A stretch of 22,108 nucleotides of DNA, from positions 1 to 22,108 of the IMG/VR virus record IMGVR_UViG_3300037963_005014. One strand, 5' to 3'. Position numbers and translations under genes: made by a program. Positions 1 to 21,056 of the stretch are shown in pieces (within the stretch, counting starts at the first letter, position 1; the number at the start of each line of letters is the position of its first letter). The stretch comes from a virus. The notes below the pieces were generated by a model. The model did not search any database, had not been told where the DNA came from, and saw only the letters and a list, made by a program, of their open reading frames with translations.

Positions 1-359
1 TCGTCTGGCTTGAACCCGATGATGGTAGCCGCCTCTTCTTTAAACCTTGGTATCATTGAGGCTGGGTTCCTTGTTATCTGTCCGCTTTCCAAGAAGTACT
101 TAAAGAAAGACTTCAAGCAAGTAAGGATGGCGTTCAGAGTGTTGCCTTTAACCGGCACTCCCTTGTTGCTCCTCTTGCATGAAACAAGAAACGAGTGGAG
201 AGTACTATGGTCTAGCGGGTTCTGCTTTGTGGTGAAGCAGTGTCTGGAAAACTTGCTTAGGTAGTTCTCATAAACAAGTATTGTATTGTCAGAAGCCCCC
301 AGCTTTTTCCAGCCGATGTACTCCTTTATCATTTGTGGTAGCGTTTTTGTTTTCTTCAT
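1..359 (-). CDS. int: Tyrosine recombinase (phage integrase), N-terminal part, truncated by window edge
   Basis: Reading the minus strand from the ATG at 357-359 gives an open frame of 119 codons running off the left edge. It shows the SAM-like core-binding domain typical of tyrosine recombinases: an N-terminal helix (YIGWKKLGASDNTILVYENY), then an SFLVSC helix, then a third helix with KSFFKYFLESGQITRNP, matching the family pattern of a '...FFKFL...G.I..NP' ending. The catalytic C-terminal domain with the R-H-R-Y residues lies outside the window, so activity cannot be judged. The family integrates and excises phage DNA by site-specific strand exchange; a Xer-like resolvase is the alternative. 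The ATG lies 4 bases downstream of a copy of the 17-bp palindrome, so its expression is probably controlled through that site. It directly follows the HTH gene at 371-688. Confidence 0.85.
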   Translation of the reverse strand, partial: MKKTKTLPQMIKEYIGWKKLGASDNTILVYENYLSKFSRHCFTTKQNPLDHSTLHSFLVSCKRSNKGVPVKGNTLNAILTCLKSFFKYFLESGQITRNPASMIPRFKEEAATIIGFKPD

Positions 360-4151: not shown

Positions 4152-4716
4152 TGTGTGCTACAGCTAAGGCTAGAAACTTAGCCGGGTACTGGATTATGCT
4201 TTTTGCATATGAATCCTTAACGTCCCGATAGGTTTGATCACTCTTGATCTCCTCCCGTGAGAGAAGAAATTCATTCACTGATTTCTCATTGTCACCAACT
4301 ACCTCCTCAAGAAGTTGAGCCTTGGTTTTTTTAGCCGGTGAATCAGCAGGCTTTGCTTGGGTCATTTGACTACCGGACTCATTACGAGTAGCTGCGATTT
4401 CCATCTCCTCAAGTGAGGGACGTTGAGCGTCCTTGTCTTGATACTTTGAGTTGGCGATTGCTCTGCCTATTGCAGATGTTTCTGAAGTCTCTACCCAGTT
4501 GGTAGTGGTTGCCCCTCGGTCTTTCTGTTTCCAGTCCATCGCGAAGCCCGTGCTAATGACATCTCCATTCTCATGTAGTTCGGCCTTGAAGCAGACCATT
4601 GTGAAGTCATCACTGTGCCAGTGGATGTCCGTGTGTACGGTGACGTTGGGGTTTGTAGCGTGAAGCCTTTTAAGTCTGGCCTCAACTGTTTCATATTTAC
4701 TTGGATCGTAACGCAT
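4138..4716 (-). CDS. ERF/ssDNA-annealing-like recombination protein (tentative)
   Basis: A 192-residue protein. The N-terminal half has alternating strands (VTVHTDIHW, FTMVCFKAEL, VISTGFAMDW), then TTNWVETSETSAIGRAIANS (about 72-91), a motif shared by many phage recombination or ssDNA-binding proteins where 'ETSAIGRAL' precedes a helix. The C-terminal half is charged and probably flexible. It overlaps the exonuclease-like gene by 14 bases, and exonuclease plus annealing protein is a classic phage recombination pair; this context supports the call. I cannot tell ERF from related ssDNA-binding families by eye. No Shine-Dalgarno precedes the ATG (4714-4716). Confidence 0.5.
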   Translation of the reverse strand: MRYDPSKYETVEARLKRLHATNPNVTVHTDIHWHSDDFTMVCFKAELHENGDVISTGFAMDWKQKDRGATTTNWVETSETSAIGRAIANSKYQDKDAQRPSLEEMEIAATRNESGSQMTQAKPADSPAKKTKAQLLEEVVGDNEKSVNEFLLSREEIKSDQTYRDVKDSYAKSIIQYPAKFLALAVAHSAKS

Positions 4717-6093: not shown

Positions 6094-6545
6094 TAGAACA
6101 GTTCCTCTTCCTTTACTGTGACAGTATTAATGTTTTGTTCAGCTATCTGATCCAACACATTCACCATTGCGTGAGTCCAATAAGGATGAGACCTAGCCTC
6201 GGCACTCATTATAGCTGCCTTGATATCCCTGCTGCTTAACAAGCTATCACGCTCCCGCCTTGACAGTTTAATTACGTATTCTTCTGGCATTTTTTTAAAT
6301 GAACCTTTCGGCCTTCCTCTTTTCTTGCGCTCACCTTTCTTTAGGTATCTTTCAGCCCTGCATTTCAAGACGCTTATGTTTTGTTTGGTGCATCCCATTT
6401 CATCAGCGATCTCTTGAAGGGTGCGTCCGTTTGCTTTCTTTAGAAGCACGATCTTCTCTTTCTCATTTATGATCTTATCAGAGTACCCTTTGCAAATCTC
6501 TCTGATTTTATCATATCGGTTTAACGTAGTGTATTTAGGTTCCAT
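6093..6545 (-). CDS. HTH protein resembling sigma-70 region 4
   Basis: A 150-residue protein. Residues about 28-70 (NEKEKIVLLKKANGRTLQEIADEMGCTKQNISVLKCRAERYLKKG) read as a sigma-region-4-like helix-turn-helix: 'R-T-L-Q-E-I-A-D-E-M-G-C-T-x-Q-x-I-S-x-L-x-x-R-A-x-x-x-L'. It is followed by an AT-hook-like basic segment KKRGRPKGSFKK (about 74-85). No region 2 is present, so it is not a complete sigma factor; it may be a DNA-binding regulator or an RNA-polymerase-appropriating factor. The last codons contain a palindrome copy that belongs to the next gene. It overlaps the upstream small gene by 11 bases. Confidence 0.68.
   Translation of the reverse strand: MEPKYTTLNRYDKIREICKGYSDKIINEKEKIVLLKKANGRTLQEIADEMGCTKQNISVLKCRAERYLKKGERKKRGRPKGSFKKMPEEYVIKLSRRERDSLLSSRDIKAAIMSAEARSHPYWTHAMVNVLDQIAEQNINTVTVKEEELF
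6112..6128. promoter_or_regulatory. 17-bp palindromic operator-like site, copy 3
   Basis: Reads TTTACTGTGACAGTATT. It lies inside the 3' end of the HTH gene (6093-6545) and 18 bases before the ATG of the next gene (5839-6093). Confidence 0.7.
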
Positions 6546-8112: not shown

Positions 8113-8129
8113 TGTACTGTTACAGTATA
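8113..8129. promoter_or_regulatory. 17-bp palindromic operator-like site, copy 4
   Basis: Reads TGTACTGTTACAGTATA, with T instead of S as the centre and one arm mismatch. It stands 11 bases before the ATG of the 7643-8101 gene, in the gap after the VWA gene. On either side is a possible weak long-range inverted repeat (8137-8145 with 8197-8207). Confidence 0.7.
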
Positions 8130-8211: not shown

Positions 8212-9681
8212 TCATGCAGCCACCTCCACGCTGATGTAGTGTGTCTGCGGATGGTCTGGCTTGATGTCAGCCTCCGGGTCAGTGTTGATTCCTACGTAAA
8301 CTGTAGGCACTCCTGTGTGTGGGACGGCATGGTCTTGCCACATTACTTCCCAATACATATCAGACACTATCAAGCACCAATCATATTCAGATGCTCTTTG
8401 CTGAACCCAGCGGATTGATGGGATCATATTAGTGCCACCTCTGCCGTACCATTCATTGGGAATCTTCAAGGGGAAGCTTGCGTTAGTGAACGTCCTAGTG
8501 CCTGCTTCAATAACTCTTGTATCACACTGCACTAAAGTCACTGTAGCGTTGCGGTATTCACGTATGATCTTGTCAATCTGGTTGATTGCCTCGGCACATT
8601 CTGAATCACCCATGCTGCCAGAGGTGTCCACAATAACAACCCCAGTGGTTTTGTTCTTGGTCTTGTTGTCGGGTAGCATCACGCCACGCCGATGACCGTG
8701 TCTTCTTGATGGTCTCTTCCAAGTGTACCCGCCAAGAGCCTTCTTGGATATCCATTGGCGAAGCAAAGCCCATCCATTGTTGGCACGTTTGTTCACGTGA
8801 TCCATCATGGACAACCCTTCACCAAGACCCTTGCCTTGTTGCTTTTGCAGGACAACAGCGTCCGCAACCATGTCCTTCCACTCTTCCTCCACCTCGGCGG
8901 CGTCTTGTTGCTCAGAGGTAGGGGCATCCTCAACACCCCCCAAGCTTGGCTTGTTGTAATCATCACCAAGGTACTTCTTAACCCTCTCTTGGAACTTGTC
9001 TTCCTCGGCTTGAGATTTAGACGGGCTGCCTCCACTTGTTGGTTGGCTATTAGTGTCTGCCTCTCCCTCCCCCGTGCCTTGCTCAGTGGATTCATTGACA
9101 TCAGCATTGCCAAGGCTTTGCCTGCCGGGCTGGCTTGAGTCTCCAACTGCCTCACCATCACCGTCCCCATCAGTACATTGATCATCCTCTTCTTCAGAGT
9201 TAATCTCTTCTACTAGTTTGGTATAGTACCACTCAGCAGATTTACCGGGGGGCATGGATAAGTAATTGCCTTCAAGTGGGAATATCCCAGCAGCAACACC
9301 GTCCCCCTTGAGGTCACTCAGTATCCCAAGATTGTTATACCAAGGTTCAAGGTGCGAGTTGATTGCCAAGTCAGCCGCCACATTCCACAGCCTTGGGTCA
9401 CGATCACCGCGCCTCACATGATGGGCGAATAAAACATGAGCTACCTCATGCAGCATGATGCCCTTCACAATTTGAGATGACAGCTTATCAATCCACTCAG
9501 GAGAGTAGCGTAAATACTTGCCGTTTGTGCAGGCGGTCTCAATGCCAGAGTCCTCAACGATCTTCCACTTGGAAAGGAATGGGATTCCGATTGGATGTTC
9601 TGACCAAAGATAATCTTGTGCGTTGATGATCTTCTCTTTCGGGGTCAGGCCGTTCTTATACATAGGGATTATATTACTCAT
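8212..9681 (-). CDS. Metallopeptidase-like/VWA protein (DUF2201-type), MoxR partner
   Basis: A 489-residue protein with three parts. Residues about 20-160 form a zincin-like domain with HEVAHVLFAHH (H78-E79..H82, an HExxH zinc motif) and an 'AADLAIN' helix. Residues about 158-265 are an acidic, low-complexity linker. Residues about 340-480 form a von Willebrand factor A-like domain with the MIDAS motif VDTSGSMGDS (D352, S354, S356). This metallopeptidase-like plus VWA layout is known in DUF2201 proteins, which pair with MoxR ATPases. It overlaps the DUF3150-like gene by 4 bases. The inferred job is substrate binding for MoxR-driven remodelling; whether the HExxH catalyses is unknown. Confidence 0.85.
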   Translation of the reverse strand: MSNIIPMYKNGLTPKEKIINAQDYLWSEHPIGIPFLSKWKIVEDSGIETACTNGKYLRYSPEWIDKLSSQIVKGIMLHEVAHVLFAHHVRRGDRDPRLWNVAADLAINSHLEPWYNNLGILSDLKGDGVAAGIFPLEGNYLSMPPGKSAEWYYTKLVEEINSEEEDDQCTDGDGDGEAVGDSSQPGRQSLGNADVNESTEQGTGEGEADTNSQPTSGGSPSKSQAEEDKFQERVKKYLGDDYNKPSLGGVEDAPTSEQQDAAEVEEEWKDMVADAVVLQKQQGKGLGEGLSMMDHVNKRANNGWALLRQWISKKALGGYTWKRPSRRHGHRRGVMLPDNKTKNKTTGVVIVDTSGSMGDSECAEAINQIDKIIREYRNATVTLVQCDTRVIEAGTRTFTNASFPLKIPNEWYGRGGTNMIPSIRWVQQRASEYDWCLIVSDMYWEVMWQDHAVPHTGVPTVYVGINTDPEADIKPDHPQTHYISVEVAA

Positions 9682-10577
9682 ACCTCTGTTGGGTTGTAGT
9701 TCTCAAGCGCAGAGAGCAACGAGTCTCCTGCTTCCATTACCTCCTCACGCACAGCGGCAGACTCTTTAACTTGGTCAGCATCCAGTTGATATAAACTGTC
9801 ACGGATTTGCTTCTCAAAATTTTTGATGTCTGCATCATCAGTGATGTTGAGTGAAGGCAAGGCATCACATAGCGTAGTGATTCCAGTCAGAGCAGTGGCG
9901 AAGAACTTTGTGTTCTCTCCTTTGATCTGCTTCTCATGGAAGTTCTTGATGGATGCCATGCTTGTCTTGATCTGATCAACTATCCTGCCAGCAATCTCCT
10001 TCACTGAATCATTCAGCTTCCGGGCATACTTGCGCTCAGTCTCAAGCTTAACTTCCTCTGTCAATTCAACAGAGCCTTTGATGATGATGTTGTTTACATC
10101 AGTGATAGCCTCTGTCTCTATATCAAAGACAAACTGATCGCCCACTTCCTGTGTTGACGGGAACTTATCCGGGTCAAACAAAGTCTGGAGATCATTGGCG
10201 GCACGTTGCCTTGTCTCAGAGTAGCGTCCGACGAATTTGTCCCGCTCGTCATAGAACTCTGCACGTGCATCTTGCAGCCGCTGCTTGATGTTCTGGTATG
10301 TGCTGACTTGTATCAGCCTTTTACCATGTGAGTCCCAAGGATGAGAAAGTGAGTTAAGCATTGCCTTTGCCTCATCACGTACCTTGCGGCACGGCTTGAT
10401 GTCCTTGTTGGTGAACTTCAAGACCTGACTCTTCACCCTGTCCTTGTTGGCGTTGTTTGCCATACAAGCATCTTGGCTTGCGGTCTTGGATGTGTAGGTC
10501 TGGCCGGGTAGACCAGTTGTTATCTTAACGAGAAGACAGTTCTCATTAAGCCGTTGTAATGCTGTTGTGTCATTCAT
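9678..10577 (-). CDS. DUF3150-like coiled-coil protein of the MoxR/VWA module
   Basis: A 299-residue protein of mostly alpha helix. Residues about 1-35 hold a strand with LVKITTGLPGQTYTSK, followed by a long helical body with heptad-like charge spacing (about 85-270), for example RLQDARAEFYDERDKFVGRYSETRQRA and VKLETERKYARKLNDSVKEIAGRIVDQIK. The overall length, the opening strand motif and its position between a MoxR ATPase and a VWA protein fit DUF3150, a family I know from phage and bacterial neighbourhoods of this kind; the match is by pattern only. It starts 17 bases after a palindrome copy and overlaps the VWA gene by 4 bases. Confidence 0.6.
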   Translation of the reverse strand: MNDTTALQRLNENCLLVKITTGLPGQTYTSKTASQDACMANNANKDRVKSQVLKFTNKDIKPCRKVRDEAKAMLNSLSHPWDSHGKRLIQVSTYQNIKQRLQDARAEFYDERDKFVGRYSETRQRAANDLQTLFDPDKFPSTQEVGDQFVFDIETEAITDVNNIIIKGSVELTEEVKLETERKYARKLNDSVKEIAGRIVDQIKTSMASIKNFHEKQIKGENTKFFATALTGITTLCDALPSLNITDDADIKNFEKQIRDSLYQLDADQVKESAAVREEVMEAGDSLLSALENYNPTEV

Positions 10578-10594
10578 AGCGTTTTTAATAATGT

Positions 10595-10611
10595 TATACT
10601 GTGACAGGATT
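10595..10611. promoter_or_regulatory. 17-bp palindromic operator-like site, copy 5 (degenerate)
   Basis: Reads TATACTGTGACAGGATT; the core CTGTGACAG is intact but the right arm is degenerate. It overlaps the moxR stop (10610-10612) and lies 17 bases before the DUF3150-like ATG, so it could regulate the two downstream genes of the module separately from moxR. Confidence 0.62.
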
Positions 10612-11755
10612 AAGCAGCTTTGCGCTCCTCATCCCACGTTTTAAACTCCTCAAGGCCAGCGACCTTGAGACCTCTGTGTAAGGCTGCGTTAAAGAACGCG
10701 CCCTTGCATTCATCTGGCCAGCGATTGGCGTACTTAACGAAAGCACGTGTGGCTTCAGTGTCCTCTTTGCCATCAGCGTATGCGTAGTCAACGAGGTGCT
10801 GAGTGGCAATGTAAAGTATCCCAAAAGAGTCAGCACCATTTGGTACGCTTACTCCCTCTGGATCAGCAATGATCTTATCAGCGTCAGGCACTGACTCCTT
10901 GAGCTTGCGGAATGCCAGTGCTTCCTGACCGGCAACGGAGCCGATGGTTCCGTAGACCAGAGACTTAATAACTTCTGGCCGGGTAGCATAGCCGCCGATT
11001 TTGTGGCACTCCTCTATCAGCTTGATAGCCCAGACAAATGTCCGAGGGGTACACTTGGTGATCTCGGTGTACTCCACCTCTTCCCCGCAAAAGATTTCCT
11101 TTCGGTAATCAGCAAACGCAATAGACCAAGACGGCAAGCCTTGATCTGTTGCCCAGTTCTGCCAGCCTTTAACGGCAGCACTTGACGTACTGTCCACATA
11201 GAAGTGGATCAAGCGTGTCGCCGCCGCCGATGACAAAGGTGTAGTCCCCATGTCCGAGTCTGCATTGCCAGCACCGACAACGTAGACATCATCATCTAAT
11301 TCCCTGCCGTTGATGCAGCGATCCAGATCAAGCTGGAGCGTTGCATTCTGTACCTCAGTGGTGCTGCGATCCTTCTCATCCCACAATAGGATGCATCCTT
11401 TGCGCTTCTTGGGAATGTAGTTTCCCTTTGAATCAAACTGTTTGAGTACTCTCTCCATCTGCGAAGACTGCAAGTACCTGACCTGACCCTTGTCAGTGTC
11501 CGGGCAAGGAAGACCGCCGATATCAGTTGGGTCTTTGTCACTTGTCCGAATGTCTACAAGTTCCATGTCAATTTGCTTGGATACTTGGCCCCATAATTGG
11601 GACTTGCCCAGCCCAACGCCGCCCCAAATTATTGGGACTAATGCTGCACCTTGTTTCCCCTTGCTTTGGAGATACGTCCGAGTCATGTTGATACAAACAA
11701 GGACGCCCATCTTGATGACCTCTAGCGTAGAGGTATAAGCTTTTATTGCTTTCAT
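10610..11755 (-). CDS. MoxR-family AAA+ ATPase
   Basis: A 381-residue protein. Walker A is GGVGLGKS (45-52), Walker B is CILLWDE (121-127), sensor 1 is VVGAGN (about 159-164), and the likely Arg finger is the SSAAATR segment (about 175-181). A TDIGGLP motif (about 77-83) precedes the Walker B, as in MoxR-like ATPases. MoxR proteins work with VWA-domain partners to remodel or mature proteins; the partner is encoded two genes downstream. A near-consensus sigma-70 promoter (11827-11855) and an untranslated leader precede the ATG. The C-terminal 150 residues are helical and family-specific. Confidence 0.85.
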   Translation of the reverse strand: MKAIKAYTSTLEVIKMGVLVCINMTRTYLQSKGKQGAALVPIIWGGVGLGKSQLWGQVSKQIDMELVDIRTSDKDPTDIGGLPCPDTDKGQVRYLQSSQMERVLKQFDSKGNYIPKKRKGCILLWDEKDRSTTEVQNATLQLDLDRCINGRELDDDVYVVGAGNADSDMGTTPLSSAAATRLIHFYVDSTSSAAVKGWQNWATDQGLPSWSIAFADYRKEIFCGEEVEYTEITKCTPRTFVWAIKLIEECHKIGGYATRPEVIKSLVYGTIGSVAGQEALAFRKLKESVPDADKIIADPEGVSVPNGADSFGILYIATQHLVDYAYADGKEDTEATRAFVKYANRWPDECKGAFFNAALHRGLKVAGLEEFKTWDEERKAA

Positions 11756-12411: not shown

Positions 12412-12450
12412 CTCTCACCACCTATACTGTGACAGTATAAGCGGTGAGAG
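12412..12450. promoter_or_regulatory. Extended palindrome around operator-like site, copy 6
   Basis: The perfect 17-mer TATACTGTGACAGTATA is at 12423-12439. On each side a 3-base spacer is followed by 8-base arms, CTCTCACC (12412-12419) and GGTGAGAG (12443-12450), that pair exactly. It lies 33 bases before the ATG of the DUF5710-like gene. The extra arms could make a hairpin in RNA or help dimer or tetramer binding. Confidence 0.8.
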
Positions 12451-13073: not shown

Positions 13074-13437
13074 TAAATATCCTTTCTCTTAAAGTTACTT
13101 TTGCTGTGCCACCACTAAAGCTTATGAAAGCTTCAGCCATTTTCATGGCACTCTTTTCTGTATGGGCAAGAGCTACCATTTCATGCCCCCAATCATCACG
13201 ATGCACCACAGCCCACACCCACACATCAGATGGGGGAGAACTATAGTTGCGGTACTGCACCGATGTTCTTCCAGTTGAAACGTCCTCAAGCATGATGTCA
13301 CCGCCTGACTCTGTTATACTGTGACAGTATTGTTGAGTAACCAAGGCGACAACCTTCTGGTCTTGGCGCATCTCAGGAGGGGCGTCCCCTCCTATCATAT
13401 CCATTCCAAGTCTCATTGGTCTTGAATCTTCAGCCAC
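13060..13437 (-). CDS. Hypothetical protein with an internal operator-like site
   Basis: A 125-residue frame from a GTG (13435-13437) preceded by a good AGGG ribosome site. A palindrome copy (13315-13331) lies inside it, encoding the QYCHSITE part. The ATG at 13291-13293 is an alternative start giving 77 residues and placing the palindrome 21 bases upstream, as at other genes. The body from LEDVSTGRTSVQYRNYSS onward includes strand-rich VWVWAVVHRDDWGHEMVALAHTEKSAMKMAEAFI. The function is unknown. Both starts may be used. Confidence 0.55.
   Translation of the reverse strand: MAEDSRPMRLGMDMIGGDAPPEMRQDQKVVALVTQQYCHSITESGGDIMLEDVSTGRTSVQYRNYSSPPSDVWVWAVVHRDDWGHEMVALAHTEKSAMKMAEAFISFSGGTAKVTLRERIFNERV
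13308..13338. promoter_or_regulatory. Extended palindrome around operator-like site, copy 7
   Basis: The core TATACTGTGACAGTATT (13315-13331) is flanked after 3-base spacers by ACTC (13308-13311) and GAGT (13335-13338), which pair exactly. The site is within the 13060-13437 frame, 21 bases before a possible internal ATG at 13293. Confidence 0.7.
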
Positions 13438-13974: not shown

Positions 13975-14730
13975 TTATACTGTGACAGTATAGTTGATGT
14001 TCCTTACTTCACTCCTTACTTTTGTGAAGTTTTTCTTTTTACTGCCGTGGACAGTAATCACAATTGACTTTGACTTTTTTGCCGCGCCTTGGCACAGCCC
14101 GCATTTCTCACACTGCACACCGTGCGTTGTGTTGGGGCATACAATCTCCCCGAAGCTTGGTTCTTCTCCAATGTCAGCCACTCTGAAAGTACGCCAGCCC
14201 ATGTCGTGCGCTTTTTCTTTTAGCTCAACCGTATCGGCAGACGCCATGAAGTAGGTCTTGTATCCTTGCAGCAACGGGTTCTTCCACTGGTGCGTGTAGC
14301 CTGTCCAGTTTTTAGATGCTGCCGCAATGATCCTCACTATTGGCATGGGTATCCACACTGGATCACCATATGCACCAAACCTAGTGCTTCTATCTTGAAA
14401 CAATCGGCGAAGCATTGCCTTGTCAGGAACCCAGCCTTGCCCGTCAAACTTCCCGGCGTACCCGTAGTTCCCGTTTTCCCATGATCTCCAAATTGCAAGC
14501 GGAGCTTGGCCAACATTTACGTAGCATATTTCCCCACGTAAAGGGCAATCCCCGCATACCAGTTCATCCAGCCCAGACTTAATAGCAGACACAGGATTCT
14601 CAGACTTAACCAGAATCCATATCTGTATCATGTTGCCTGTCTTTATGTTAGCTGACTTTGTTTTAAAGCCAGTTGCTATGACCACACGAAACGTGTCTTC
14701 ATAGATTACGTATCCATTGCTTTTTTTCAT
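13975..14730 (-). CDS. Conserved-looking Cys-rich phage protein of unknown function
   Basis: A 251-residue protein from the ATG at 14728-14730, chosen because a GGAG ribosome site lies 10 bases before it; a frame-extending ATG at 14769 covers a degenerate palindrome and is less likely. About residues 45-70 contain VCGDCPLRGEICYVNVGQAP, with a C-x2-C and a later Cys, and the end has CPNTTHGVQCEKCGLC, a likely zinc-binding or Fe-S cluster site. The middle region is compact (IAAASKNWTGYTHQWKN). I recall this CGDCPLRG pattern from uncharacterised phage proteins but cannot name the family. Its stop overlaps the next palindrome copy. Confidence 0.65.
   Translation of the reverse strand: MKKSNGYVIYEDTFRVVIATGFKTKSANIKTGNMIQIWILVKSENPVSAIKSGLDELVCGDCPLRGEICYVNVGQAPLAIWRSWENGNYGYAGKFDGQGWVPDKAMLRRLFQDRSTRFGAYGDPVWIPMPIVRIIAAASKNWTGYTHQWKNPLLQGYKTYFMASADTVELKEKAHDMGWRTFRVADIGEEPSFGEIVCPNTTHGVQCEKCGLCQGAAKKSKSIVITVHGSKKKNFTKVRSEVRNINYTVTV
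13976..13992. promoter_or_regulatory. 17-bp palindromic operator-like site, copy 8 (perfect)
   Basis: Reads TATACTGTGACAGTATA, a perfect palindrome. It overlaps the TAA stop (13975-13977) of the Cys-rich gene and lies 19 bases before the ATG of the 13591-13956 gene. Confidence 0.8.
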
Positions 14731-14848: not shown

Positions 14849-14865
14849 TATACTGTGACAGTATA
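14849..14865. promoter_or_regulatory. 17-bp palindromic operator-like site, copy 9 (perfect)
   Basis: Reads TATACTGTGACAGTATA, perfect, with 3-base arms CCT and AGG that pair beyond 3-base spacers. It lies 118 bases before the likely ATG at 14730 and just downstream, on the minus strand, of the terminator at 14874-14891. Two short hairpins lie between it and the gene. Confidence 0.8.
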
Positions 14866-15514: not shown

Positions 15515-15565
15515 CACTGTCTCTCTCAACCTATACTGTCACAGTATAAGCTGAAAGAGACAGTG
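15515..15565. promoter_or_regulatory. Extended palindrome around operator-like site, copy 10
   Basis: The perfect 17-mer TATACTGTCACAGTATA lies at 15532-15548. After 7-base spacers on each side, CACTGTCTCT (15515-15524) and AGAGACAGTG (15556-15565) pair exactly, giving a 51-bp symmetric element. It is 90 bases before the ATG of the 14899-15441 gene. Confidence 0.8.
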
Positions 15566-16142: not shown

Positions 16143-16159
16143 TGTACTGTCACAGTATT
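16143..16159. promoter_or_regulatory. 17-bp palindromic operator-like site, copy 11
   Basis: Reads TGTACTGTCACAGTATT, with the core CTGTCACAG intact and one change in each outer arm. It is the only copy with no clear gene start nearby, lying in the middle of the noncoding region. It may control an untranslated RNA or a short unrecognised gene on either strand. Confidence 0.65.
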
Positions 16160-16945: not shown

Positions 16946-17335
16946 TTATTTCCTGCTTCTGACGCGCTTCCTGCTGGACTTTTTCTTAGCCGCTGGCCTC
17001 CTTGTAGCCTTACGCTTTGTAGAGTCCTTCAGAAGGCTTGTCCACCACTTATGTGCGTCTGGATTGTCTTTAAAGAAAGCTGTAAGCCCGTTGGCTAGTC
17101 TGTTTGTGAGGTTCTCTTCATCTCCTGAGTTTATTCCCATACTGTAGTTAATGGTGTGAATAACCTCATGTAGGAATGTGTTGGCTAATGCTGACTTAGG
17201 TTGATCTTCAACTATGTAAATCATAAGTCCGGTTGTGTCACACCAGCCAAGCTTGTCTTGCCCAACTTCCTCTAAGCATACGTATTGGATTTTATAAATT
17301 AATCCTAGAACACTTATCTCTTTGGGCGCAGTCAT
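16946..17335 (-). CDS. Small zincin-like metallopeptidase with basic tail
   Basis: A 129-residue protein. TFLHEVIHTINYSMG (about 53-67) contains the HExxH zinc-binding motif, followed after about 14 residues by a helix with acidic residues (DEENLTNRLANGLTAFF) that may supply the third ligand. The C-terminal 25 residues (KRKATRRPAAKKKSSRKRVR) are strongly basic and could bind nucleic acid. Phage genomes often carry such short zincins of unknown target. It overlaps the upstream gene by one base. Confidence 0.65.
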   Translation of the reverse strand: MTAPKEISVLGLIYKIQYVCLEEVGQDKLGWCDTTGLMIYIVEDQPKSALANTFLHEVIHTINYSMGINSGDEENLTNRLANGLTAFFKDNPDAHKWWTSLLKDSTKRKATRRPAAKKKSSRKRVRSRK

Positions 17336-17628
17336 TAGTTATCTTCTGGTCTTTTTACCCAAGGGAGTACTCTTTCTTTAGAATAAAGCTCATGTCTTAT
17401 GTCTGAAAGAGTAACCATTCTTCCTAAAAGAAACGCTGTAAACGGGGGTAACATTTTTGTGATTGATTCTATGTTTGAGTTATCTACCTCAACCTCTATT
17501 AAACCAATCTCACACATACTCTCGGCTATGACCTCTTGTAGTCCCTCTATGGCTTCATCAAGATAGTCCTTGTCGGTTATGTCCAACGATCTGTTATTAG
17601 TAGTTCTAGTATTGCCCCGTAATTGCAT
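17335..17628 (-). CDS. Hypothetical protein
   Basis: A 97-residue protein with an acidic helix (DYLDEAIEGLQEVIAESMCEIG) and a strand-rich middle (LIEVEVDNSNIESITKM). No family is recognised. It overlaps the upstream Nmad1-like gene by 52 bases, which is long for this window, so its true start may be later; the TAA/ATG junction with the zincin gene (17335) supports the end. Confidence 0.55.
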   Translation of the reverse strand: MQLRGNTRTTNNRSLDITDKDYLDEAIEGLQEVIAESMCEIGLIEVEVDNSNIESITKMLPPFTAFLLGRMVTLSDIRHELYSKERVLPWVKRPEDN

Positions 17629-17960
17629 ATGTCTTGTGCGGTATCAGATAACTTTTCACTTTCCACTTGTTGTTCTTTCTTTTCTAACAAGTTTGCTAAC
17701 CGCTGTATCTTATCATTAAGGCGTACTAAGACGCCAAATATATTCTGATTTTTATAATTCCAGCCAGCAATGTTTCTTGATCCGTAGTCGTGCTGTTTCT
17801 GGTCAAACAATACGGCACATTTAATCATAACCTTCAAAGCCTCAAGGGTCATTGGCTCACCGAGGTTCAGCGTCCTAAATACGCTTTGAGCTATCTTGTC
17901 TGTGTCAGGGGCTTGAGGAGTTTTTTGCTGTGGTATTGGGTTATTTATGTATGTATTCAT
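17577..17960 (-). CDS. Nmad1-like (DUF1599) nucleotide-modification-associated protein
   Basis: A 127-residue protein. Residues about 53-110 contain DQKQHDYGSRNIAGW, then FGVLVRLNDKIQRLANLL, then SEKLSDTAQDICNYGAI. These give the Nmad1/DUF1599 pattern 'K-x-x-D-Y-G-x-x-N', 'F-G-x-x-x-R-x-x-D-K-x-x-R-L' and 'D-T-x-x-D-x-x-N-Y'. The family, named for its association with DNA-base-modification genes, is found in phages; its biochemical role is not established. No base-modifying enzyme is visible in this window. It overlaps the next upstream gene by 4 bases. Confidence 0.75.
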   Translation of the reverse strand: MNTYINNPIPQQKTPQAPDTDKIAQSVFRTLNLGEPMTLEALKVMIKCAVLFDQKQHDYGSRNIAGWNYKNQNIFGVLVRLNDKIQRLANLLEKKEQQVESEKLSDTAQDICNYGAILELLITDRWT

Positions 17961-18178
17961 TTCTTGTAGTTTATCATTTCAGAGGCTGACCAAAGTGTCT
18001 GGTCACATATGCGGATATCGTGGTCTGGGGTCTCTTCCTTGTGTCTTTCAATTGCTTTGATCAAGCATTCAAGCTTTGACTCTAGTTTATTGTATCTGTA
18101 ATTAGTTACTGCGTTAACAAGCTTTGGGTCTTTTGGCATTTCTTTTTTAAAGATTCCTATTGTTTGGAGTAGTTTCAT
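17957..18178 (-). CDS. Small hypothetical protein
   Basis: A 73-residue protein with a basic helical middle (NYRYNKLESKLECLIKAIERHKEET). No family is recognised. It has no clear Shine-Dalgarno; a terminator-like hairpin (18192-18215) lies just before its ATG. It overlaps the Nmad1-like gene by 4 bases. Confidence 0.55.
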   Translation of the reverse strand: MKLLQTIGIFKKEMPKDPKLVNAVTNYRYNKLESKLECLIKAIERHKEETPDHDIRICDQTLWSASEMINYKK

Positions 18179-18264: not shown

Positions 18265-18942
18265 CTAGAAAACGGGTTCTTCAATTCCGCTTTCCTTTGA
18301 AACCCCAGAGAGGAGTCCCAAATTTCCTACAAGTTTAAGACCGGCCTTTGTAGTGCCGTCCTTTCCTTCATAAGTCCTACACTCTACTTCACCAGTGGCA
18401 AAAACTGGGGTTCCTTCTTTAAGGTTTAAGGCTAGATTAACTGCCCTATCCCCAAAGCTGAGAACATCCCAGTATGTAGAGAAGGTTGTTCCATCTCCTT
18501 TAGGAGAAGGTTTTTCTGTTACAATTGTGGCAGTAAGAAATTCACTGCCTGTCTTTGCTGACTTACGGACGACTGCGTCCCTAACCAGCGTTCCTGCTAT
18601 AGCACAACTATTCATAAGTAATGGTATTAATGTTTCTGCTGACTTTACTATATATGCCCTAACTTTACTTAGAGCATAAATTTCTATTTGCTGAACTCTC
18701 TGACGGGATATCCCCATGATTTCTGCAACCTGAGATTGAGACTTTAAAGTGTTCTCCTCTAACACATCTCTGTCTGACTTGCCATAGTTCTCCATGAGGA
18801 TAGCACGGTTCCTCATTATAAAGATGCAGGTGATACATATTGGTACAGCGTTTTCTAACGGCGAGTAGTAAGCCTTGTTGCACGAACAGCATTTGTAAAT
18901 GCCTCCATGCCCTTCACCAGAACGTATCAAGTATTGGCTCAC
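18265..18942 (-). CDS. Zinc-ribbon / HTH / single-stranded DNA-binding (SSB) fusion protein
   Basis: A 225-residue protein from a GTG at 18940-18942. Residues 18-39 hold two CxxC pairs (C18xxC21, C36xxC39), a likely zinc ribbon. Residues about 67-98 (SQSQVAEIMGISRQRVQQIEIYALSKVRAYIV) are a sigma-region-4-like helix-turn-helix. Residues about 110-208 are an OB-fold SSB: NSCAIAGTLVRDAVVR, FLTATIVTEKP, STYWDVLSFGDRAVNLAL, GTPVFATGEVECRTY and TTKAGLKLVGNL. The tail ends in GIEEPVF, like the acidic SSB tip. SSBs coat ssDNA in replication and recombination. An internal ATG at codon 110 has no ribosome site, so a true fusion is favoured. Confidence 0.82.
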   Translation of the reverse strand: MSQYLIRSGEGHGGIYKCCSCNKAYYSPLENAVPICITCIFIMRNRAILMENYGKSDRDVLEENTLKSQSQVAEIMGISRQRVQQIEIYALSKVRAYIVKSAETLIPLLMNSCAIAGTLVRDAVVRKSAKTGSEFLTATIVTEKPSPKGDGTTFSTYWDVLSFGDRAVNLALNLKEGTPVFATGEVECRTYEGKDGTTKAGLKLVGNLGLLSGVSKESGIEEPVF

Positions 18943-19421
18943 GTGGCAAGAAATAAATACAATAAACTACATTTTGCAACATTTAAATTAAAAAGCTCTA
19001 CTATAGTTAGCGTAAAGCTACCCAAGACTAACTGAAGTAAGTCTTCATTTGTATAGATAAAGCTAACGGCTAACAGTAGGCTAGAAGTTCTCCGGGTAGA
19101 GGAGGATAGGTAGGCACAAGACTCCCCTGTGTAAGGGGAGTTGGCTATAGCCTCCGGTATAGTAATCGGAAAGTATAGGCGACATCCTTGCGTAGCTGGA
19201 ACTAGCGGATTCCGGTCAGTCTGTAAATCCATAAGCAAGGCACTCCGGTCGTAAGACCACTGGCGGTTCCCTTCTTAATAAGGGGGCATCGGTTTGGAGT
19301 TTATCAAGTGATAAGTATTACTAGCCTTTGCTTGGCCCCTTTCTCAGGTAGCCCCTCACACTTGTCAGCGCGTCAGTTCCGTGCGCTGAAAATATGTAGA
19401 GGCAGAACCTAGCAACTAAGG
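18943..19421. other. Hairpin-rich intergenic region between divergent operons
   Basis: About 480 bases with no convincing gene. It holds a run of inverted repeats: AAGACT/AGTCTT (19024-19029 with 19040-19045), ACTCCCC/GGGGAGT (19121-19141), the palindrome GGCTATAGCC (19143-19152), GGATT/AATCC (19207-19230), GGTC-gtaa-GACC (19247-19258, a GNRA loop on the plus strand), CCCTT/AAGGG (19269-19284), TTATC/GATAA (19311-19324) and TCAGCGC/GCGCTGA (19365-19389). It may hold divergent promoters (ACTATAGT near 19000), a structured plus-strand RNA, or an origin or packaging site. Confidence 0.5.
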
Positions 19422-19451
19422 TTGACACGTGTCAAACACATATTGCATACT
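19422..19451 (+). promoter_or_regulatory. Possible late-operon promoter with a palindrome over the -35
   Basis: TTGACA (19422-19427) begins a perfect 14-bp palindrome TTGACACGTGTCAA (19422-19435); 18 bases after the -35 is CATACT (19446-19451, 4 of 6). The start codon of the first plus-strand gene lies only about 12 bases later, so the transcript could be nearly leaderless. The palindrome could be an operator for a different protein from the 17-mer sites. Confidence 0.5.
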
Positions 19452-19462
19452 TTTTTGAACAG

Positions 19463-19708
19463 TTGAACTTTGAAGTATTTACCGAAGAAAAAAACAACAA
19501 ATGGTGGGTAATGGTAAAGTCGCCGTTCATACCAGAGCCAACGCCTGCGGGTCAGAGGTTAGTGAGGATGCAGTTTCCAGTTATATTGAAAGTAGTACAC
19601 GAAGAAAAACAGGAAGCGGAAAAGGAAGCGGAATGGCTGAAAGATCACCTACAGAACTGGAAAAAGAAACAGGGGAAGAGGGTAAAGAAAAAACAACGGA
19701 CTTTGTAA
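19463..19708 (+). CDS. Small hypothetical protein
   Basis: An 81-residue frame with a TTG start (19463-19465); the only in-frame ATG is at 19511, which would remove 16 residues that look like real protein (FEVFTEEKNNKWWVMVKSP). The body is rich in charge, with an amphipathic KVVHEEKQEAEKEAEWLKDHLQ helix and a basic tail. No family is recognised. No Shine-Dalgarno precedes the TTG, consistent with a short or leaderless transcript. The end overlaps the next gene by 76 bases. Confidence 0.5.
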   Translation: MNFEVFTEEKNNKWWVMVKSPFIPEPTPAGQRLVRMQFPVILKVVHEEKQEAEKEAEWLKDHLQNWKKKQGKRVKKKQRTL

Positions 19709-20433
19709 ATTATGTGGTTCAGAGAGTAGGAGGCAAAGCAAGTGTGTTTCAAGCTGTATGGGCAGCAATGATCCAAGAAGCCCCGGCATATCTTCTTGAC
19801 GCACAGAAGCCTATTAAGATGGGGTTTGGGGAATTGTATGCCCTACCCTACCGGGCCAACTGGAGAGAGATAATGCTTGCAAAGTTTCCAAGGCTGGCTT
19901 CAGCTTTAAAGAAAACCCCTAACCCCTTGCTAGAACCTTTTCTAATCAATGTGGGCTGGGACTCTGAGCTTTTTAACTCTGATCTTATTGAGATGAAAGA
20001 CGGAGATAAACACCACGGATGGTGTATTGCGTTTGCACCTAATGACCAATGGTTAAAATTGGTAAGAGCCTATGAAAAAGATCAGCGTAAATCGCTAGGG
20101 GCATACAAATATGCTACTAGGTTTACAAAGCTGGTAAGAAAATATTCAAAAAGAATATTAAAATATTTTTTAAATCATGTTACTCAAGCGTCTATACCGG
20201 CTGCGGCTGTTCGTCACGGCAGCAACGCAGGGGGCGATTATCTTGTGCCGCACATCCCCAAAGGGAAAGTGCGCCCAACGGCTCCTAAAGTCAGCCAGAC
20301 ACGTGTTGTCTGTGATCTTGAGCAACCAGAAGCTGAAGAAAGAGAGGAGGGGGCTTTATATGGCTCGTTTAAAGAAGTGCCACCGATGCCCCTTGTTCCA
20401 TCAAGTCCTAAAGACTTGTGGAAGCGCGGATAG
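19633..20433 (+). CDS. Hypothetical late-region protein
   Basis: A 266-residue protein from the ATG at 19633-19635, chosen over a start at 19501 because AGGAAGCGGA gives a ribosome site directly before it. The N-terminus is charged and probably unfolded (ERSPTELEKETGEEGKEK). The middle contains FVNYVVQRVGGKASVFQAVW, then PFLINVGWDSELFNSDLIEM, and a basic helix with KYATRFTKLVRKYSKRILKY. The end is proline-rich. No family is recognised; its place at the start of the plus-strand genes allows a packaging or virion-assembly role, but nothing proves it. Confidence 0.6.
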   Translation: MAERSPTELEKETGEEGKEKTTDFVNYVVQRVGGKASVFQAVWAAMIQEAPAYLLDAQKPIKMGFGELYALPYRANWREIMLAKFPRLASALKKTPNPLLEPFLINVGWDSELFNSDLIEMKDGDKHHGWCIAFAPNDQWLKLVRAYEKDQRKSLGAYKYATRFTKLVRKYSKRILKYFLNHVTQASIPAAAVRHGSNAGGDYLVPHIPKGKVRPTAPKVSQTRVVCDLEQPEAEEREEGALYGSFKEVPPMPLVPSSPKDLWKRG

Positions 20434-20584: not shown

Positions 20585-21056
20585 AGCCTTATCCTGTGAC
20601 AGTATAGCGGAGGTGGGGAAGCCAAAGACTGACACGCCTAAGCTAACCGCCAAAGAACTGGATGACGCAGCTAAGGAGCTTGGCCTTACTAGAGTTGGAG
20701 ATAAGACCGTCAAAGCTTTGCGTGATGTTGGAATTGCGGCAGAGCAGCACGGAGCTATTAAGGTCGCGTTAGGGCGAGTTTTGGTTTCAGACGACAGGCT
20801 TGATAAATTAATGGAAGTTGCTTTGGGTGTCGCTGAAGACTCAGAGGATGATGAGATCAAAATAAAAGCAGCTACTGCTGGGACTGGACTTGCCAACCAG
20901 ATAAGCAAGAACGCGGAGCTAATTTACAAAATGGCCAATCAAAAGATGATTGAGCAAACTGGAGACCAAAGAAAGTTTCAAAGCTTTGGCCCAGATCACG
21001 TTGTTGTTCCTGTTCAAAACAACGTGTCAGTCACTGTTCCCGACTCCCCGGAATAG
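20520..21056 (+). CDS. Hypothetical late-region protein (possible terminase small subunit)
   Basis: A 178-residue protein. Residues about 40-140 are helical: KLTAKELDDAAKELGLTRVG, then KALRDVGIAAEQHGAIKVAL, then IKIKAATAGTGLANQISKNAELIY. The end is strand-rich (HVVVPVQNNVSVTVPD). A helical middle and position upstream of virion genes could fit a terminase small subunit or scaffold-type role, but no HTH or clear motif is seen, so this is weak. A palindrome copy lies in codons 24-29; a GTG start at 20611-20613, just after it, is an alternative. Confidence 0.58.
   Translation: MKITSAQLPENTDGQTPSEETEALSCDSIAEVGKPKTDTPKLTAKELDDAAKELGLTRVGDKTVKALRDVGIAAEQHGAIKVALGRVLVSDDRLDKLMEVALGVAEDSEDDEIKIKAATAGTGLANQISKNAELIYKMANQKMIEQTGDQRKFQSFGPDHVVVPVQNNVSVTVPDSPE
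20590..20606. promoter_or_regulatory. 17-bp palindromic operator-like site, copy 12 (late region)
   Basis: Reads TATCCTGTGACAGTATA, one mismatch from a perfect palindrome, inside the 20520-21056 gene. It is the only copy in the plus-strand block. It could repress late transcription or mark the start of a shorter gene beginning at 20611. Confidence 0.6.

Follow-up and report, generated by a model that had tools for sequence, protein, structure and literature searches.

Single-stranded DNA-binding proteins (SSBs) are generally regarded as sequence-blind. SSBs and region 4 of sigma-70 are each known, and what appears to be new in the locus described here is a conserved phage SSB family carrying a head composed of a zinc motif and a helix-turn-helix (HTH) like that of sigma region 4. 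A region-4-like protein is likewise tied to a replication component in the late transcription of phage T4 (gp33-gp55-gp45), but T4 employs separate proteins and a sliding clamp (PMC7892883), whereas the fusion has an SSB in place of the clamp. The use of one gene for two chains has been described in the endolysins LysIME-EF1 and CTP1L, where full-length and C-terminal products form an oligomer (PMC7098653, PMC4777826); the phage enzyme LysIME-EF1, through an internal start, assembles as a tetramer with a single full-length chain and three truncated ones (PMC7098653). These are lysis enzymes whose second product has been shown by experiment, whereas codon conservation is what points to a second product of the fusion gene. 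A literature search found no published SSB with a sigma-like head joined to it, and the cultured phage records searched did not contain the layout, in line with an earlier note on this DNA, which knew of no standard phage SSB so arranged.

The window, by which we mean the whole stretch of DNA analyzed, is an entire IMG/VR record of 22,108 bases. The earlier note had reported a single continuous frame with CxxC pairs, an HTH and an OB fold, giving no strand; the frame is indeed there at 18265-18942 and lies on the minus strand, running from a GTG start at 18942 to a TAG stop at 18267-18265 (Table 1). In the protein of the window, PF04545 and PF00436 are both matched above their curated cut-offs, as they are in all three closest members of the family, and both are matched in 14/14 distinct members at E≤0.01. 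A structure predicted by AlphaFold2 from a 14-member alignment (pLDDT 79.3, pTM 0.66; a run with 3 sequences was uninformative, with pLDDT 34) shows two strands at the zinc motif (residues 14-17 and 24-27), four helices (43-53, 58-63, 69-76 and 80-100) and then an OB barrel. Among the viral structures listed by Foldseek, none covers the whole protein. Both halves evolve under purifying selection, with dN/dS of about 0.09-0.12 for the N-terminal head and about 0.06-0.07 for the SSB in the three closest sequences, and labelling the open reading frame only "SSB" or only "sigma-like HTH" overlooks half of the protein.

Table 1. Coordinates of the fusion gene, its parts and the associated features; positions refer to the window unless a contig is named.
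Feature	Part of the protein	Position	Strand	Basis
Whole gene: zinc motif, sigma-region-4 HTH and SSB	225 aa	18265..18942	minus	GTG start, TAG stop
Zinc-ribbon-like motif C18-x2-C21-x14-C36-x2-C39	residues 16-41	18820..18897	minus	four Cys invariant, 14/14
Sigma-70 region-4-like helices and HTH	residues 44-97	18652..18813	minus	PF04545 14/14; RpoD region 4, PDB 4g8x/4g94
Recognition helix RQRVQQIEIYALS	residues 80-92	18667..18705	minus	alignment; comparison with RpoD region 4
ATG, probable second start giving a 116-aa SSB alone	codon 110	18613..18615	minus	ATG in 14/14
Raised conservation of synonymous codons at the internal ATG	codons 101-120	18583..18642	minus	scan permutation
SSB OB fold	residues 110-210	18313..18615	minus	PF00436 14/14; Foldseek 5xgt/5yyu SsbA/SsbB
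SSB-type C-terminal tip GIEEPVF	residues 219-225	18268..18288	minus	all members end in F
Downstream genes: small protein, Nmad1-like (DUF1599), small protein, metallopeptidase-like		16946..18178	minus	same order in relatives; Pfam
Conserved gene flanking the fusion gene opposite the downstream set, transcribed divergently		19501..20433	plus	conserved in relatives
Palindrome TATACTGTNACAGTATA, sites 1-6		364-380, 2210-2226, 6112-6128, 8113-8129, 10595-10611, 12423-12439		
Palindrome TATACTGTNACAGTATA, sites 7-12		13315-13331, 13976-13992, 14849-14865, 15532-15548, 16143-16159, 20590-20606		
Prepilin-like ORFs		L044:24-479, L003:3984-4316, L050:10615-11106, L034:2641-3234, L035:6580-6840		

The match of the SSB part to PF00436 (E=3e-9, 37.2 bits against a cut-off of 26) also exceeds the cut-off in the relatives L002 and L003 and falls below it in G006 in the domain search, and the best Foldseek matches of the predicted fold are SsbA and SsbB of S. 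aureus (5xgt/5yyu; E about 1e-9, target TM about 0.75). The fusion shares with bacterial and phage SSBs the OB fold, the aromatic residues W158 and F163 in a TYWD...FG block, the aromatic Y191 and a tip of the PF or PxF type. W158, F163 and Y191 are invariant among the aligned members, and they correspond to W54, F60 and W88 of E. coli SSB. The full OB-fold SSB with an SSB-type end that had been proposed is thus what the profile, the fold match and the terminal GIEEPVF describe; the tip ends in F in all members, mostly as PF or PxF, with modest acidity. Compared with E. coli SSB, the tail is short and the acidic tip weaker than the E. coli sequence DDDIPF, and the fusion differs from all these SSBs by the 109-residue N-terminal head. 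In each of seven larger records (a 64-kb relative and six others, four of them of 48-71 kb), the fusion is the sole match to PF00436; as these records may be fragments, a second SSB elsewhere is possible.

In the head, the two CxxC pairs (C18/C21 and C36/C39, residues 18-39) form a conserved C4 motif in 14/14 members, which upholds the zinc-ribbon of the earlier note as a motif and not as a member of a known family, the segment having no Pfam or NCBIfam zinc-family match above cut-off. The likeness of the HTH to sigma region 4 is borne out by the fold prediction and by the PF04545 profile (E=9e-8, 32.0 bits against a cut-off of 24.1), although the match spans positions 21-49 of 50, which is the HTH half, and the 4.1 part is weak. 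The recognition helix reads SRQRVQQIE in the fusion and TRERIRQIE in sigma, with glutamines in the fusion at the positions equivalent to the key residues E585 and R588 (E. coli numbering). Unlike sigma-70, the fusion has the C4 motif before region 4 and an SSB after it, and the domain search detected region 4 only, with regions 2 and 3 absent; the fusion protein is therefore not a sigma factor. A stand-alone 145-aa protein with a Cys motif and the same RQRVQQIE helix, without SSB, is encoded on contig L042 by the frame that includes 4222-4245. It resembles the head in the Cys motif and in the sigma4 HTH (hhalign 96% over residues 64-96) and differs from it in Cys spacing, in the lack of an SSB and in a similarity confined to the HTH, and it may be related to the head in its unfused form.

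The same single-frame fusion is found in 16 further viral contigs at 48-90% identity, so that the family numbers 17 contigs including the window, from which 14 distinct sequences were aligned (lowest identity 48%). The two close relatives are L002, which shares 90% identity and sits on a contig of 64 kb, and L003, which shares 80%; both carry it in a single frame. In L003 this frame stays open across 12 nt inserted where the head meets the SSB, immediately ahead of the SSB start. L044 (70%) was added when the family alignment was used for scanning. Scans at the protein level that began from a single sequence or from three had returned L002 and L003 only, and no fusion relative in bacterial genome contigs. 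The wider family was obtained through a degenerate DNA pattern for RQRVQQIE, which matched 26 stretches, 15 of them with zinc motif, sigma4 and SSB in one frame. Since the members outside the close clade were recovered through the recognition helix, the recruitment itself accounts for part of the constancy of residues 80-87; L044, recruited by another pattern, has R in place of Q84. Such recruitment could also have passed over split or headless versions; no split version appeared in the family-alignment scan, and a search for one through the neighboring gene led to the same two relatives only. L053 and L054 proved to be sigma-like only. The earlier note had named two separate genes joined by a frameshift or an assembly error as the finding that might undo its reading; no split and no frameshift was seen, and because the same single-frame fusion occurs in 16 other contigs, neither explanation holds. 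The fusion is a real, previously unnamed SSB family of uncultured tailed phages.

The fusion gene lies at a divergent junction as the first gene of a conserved operon, and the gene order is common to most members, including the neighbors of the divergently transcribed gene. The divergent intergenic region of about 500 bases (18943-19460), which is partly alike in L002 and has no Rfam match, is likely a switch region and a candidate site for binding of the head. The analysis yielded no target site for the head. A TTG close to the start codon, considered as part of a sigma-70 promoter spanning codons 1-8, was discarded, since its promoter score does not exceed that of random positions. Farther along the same leftward block, at 8212-11755, lies a set comprising a MoxR-type ATPase and a metallopeptidase/VWA protein (DUF2201), partly present in relatives.

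How many products this gene makes depends on codon 110, which is ATG in 14/14 members, preceded by a linker that varies in length and sequence, and at which (residue 109-110) homologous SSB structures begin to align. An invariant Met110 is weak evidence when taken alone, because Met76, inside the HTH, is likewise invariant. The discriminating evidence for a second start is codon constraint: in 12 diverged sequences, synonymous-codon identity exceeds expectation mainly at codons 1-10 and 101-120, and the best windows of 12 to 20 codons past codon 12 are those at codons 101-120 (column-permutation P 2.5e-4 to 5e-5; windows of 16-20 codons give 5e-5 to 1e-4 in the permutation scan), with the three closest sequences alone giving P 0.002-0.03 there. 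The permutation test ignores phylogeny, and the rest of the gene, which shares the same tree, is its internal control. The same signature marks the starts of ordinary genes of the phage, which served as a control: the fraction of identical codons is 0.76 over codons 2-5 and falls to 0.46 past codon 50. Upstream of ATG110 the sequence is 65-80% A/T with little predicted structure and resembles other starts of the phage. A ribosome site at codon 110, which the earlier note had proposed to look at in relatives, is lacking in the form of a Shine-Dalgarno sequence, but the majority of the phage's genes lack one too, so that its absence says little. Codon 110 is probably a second start, although the constraint at codons 101-120 could instead mark another RNA element. 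The earlier note had also reckoned with translation from codon 110 only; the start there is probable, and the purifying selection on the N-terminal part speaks against its being the only one. Protein-level selection on the N-terminal part and a start at codon 110 together mean that both forms are probably made, and we infer from the sequences that one gene gives two in-frame products, a targeted and a plain SSB. We also considered a coupled leader ORF of 7 codons, which in the three closest members ends within the GTGA start; it was dropped, being absent outside that clade.

The reading toward which we lean, by a little, is that the fusion is a replication SSB with a fused head, made as two products that form mixed oligomers in which the head tethers the SSB to a phage site. 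A small DNA-binding protein with a zinc motif and sigma region 4 would have been joined in frame to the N-terminus of an SSB and then retained. Initiation at codon 1 (GTG or ATG) would give the 225-aa protein and initiation at ATG110 the plain SSB of 116 aa, and the OB domain would bring both into mixed oligomers, with plain subunits coating ssDNA and one or more full-length subunits bearing the dsDNA-binding head. Most subunits could be plain and few could carry the head, as in LysIME-EF1, and the internal start would be a simple means of setting the ratio of targeted to plain subunits. Through the head the SSB would be held at a particular place on the phage genome, and the likeliest candidates are its own operator, within the divergent switch region, and the origin; because the gene opens its operon at the divergent junction, the head most plausibly acts there, as an operator binder, or near the origin. 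The ssDNA arising from replication could titrate the head away, and an SSB with such a head could alternatively double as an ssDNA-sensing regulator. Less likely than not is the fuller proposal that the plain and site-targeted SSBs supplied by the internal start form mixed oligomers with a few sequence-specific heads, which mark the operator or origin and report ssDNA levels to gene control. As the only detectable SSB of this phage lineage, and one with a conserved head, the fusion offers a natural and testable case of an SSB that could be site-directed.

Several other explanations have to be weighed against this one. The full-length fusion may be the sole product and the only SSB, with a head on every subunit and with the constraint at the junction due to another RNA or DNA element or to chance. 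The reading frame has no interruption, purifying selection acts on the N-terminal part, codon 110 has no Shine-Dalgarno site, and the linker residues K100, E103 and I106 are invariant, indicating that the region is partly conserved as protein; yet the synonymous peak falls exactly on the canonical SSB start, and Met110 is retained despite the variable linker, so we hold a single product to be unlikely while according it serious weight. The A/U-rich stretch ahead of codon 110 might, on the other hand, be a translational operator for the SSB like that of T4 gp32, with the head a separate matter. T4 gp32 represses its own mRNA via UUAAA/UAAA elements beside the start (PMC535899), and in every member the stretch has many A residues and little structure, with UAAA-like runs in several, but gp32 belongs to a different OB family and we give this operator a low probability. 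It would in any case add to the dual-start reading and not replace it, because codon 110 must be a start there too.

A different role for the head, as a gp33- or sigma4-like contact with RNA polymerase on the beta flap that couples transcription to the ssDNA of the fork, takes up the earlier note's proposed link between replication and transcription. It would agree with the sigma region 4 fold of the head and has a precedent in T4, where gp33 takes hold of the tip helix of the beta flap and late transcription is activated by the replication clamp (PMC7892883, PMC2988020). What makes it rather improbable is that only the HTH half of the PF04545 profile (positions 21-49) is matched, the 4.1 part being weak, and that the best conserved element is the putative DNA-contacting recognition helix, even if its invariance is partly imposed by the search, whereas gp33 alone does not bind DNA (PMC7892883). 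All sequences are metagenomic contigs, which might raise the suspicion that an assembly or sequencing error fused two genes; as the same in-frame junction recurs across 17 contigs with identities as low as 48%, most of which share the gene order, this is already refuted by the relatives and its probability is practically nil.

A dispersed palindrome, TATACTGTNACAGTATA, occurs in 12 copies in the window, where 0.04 would be expected, and most of them lie 10-50 nt ahead of a start codon. The 64-kb relative G001 has about 25 copies and L003 has 7, and the palindrome looks like the dispersed operator or start-associated site of some regulator. It was rejected as a common target of the head, since six other fusion-bearing phages contain no copy at all.

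The gene starts of the window and of L012-L015 are mostly devoid of Shine-Dalgarno sites and A/T-rich upstream, which suggests a host with non-Shine-Dalgarno initiation. Prepilin-like ORFs (SFTLIELLAVVSIIAIL) adjoin the fusion gene or lie near it in five phages, and in L044, L050 and L034 a CxxC...CxxC segment precedes the prepilin-like ORF; these ORFs are a possible clue to the host.
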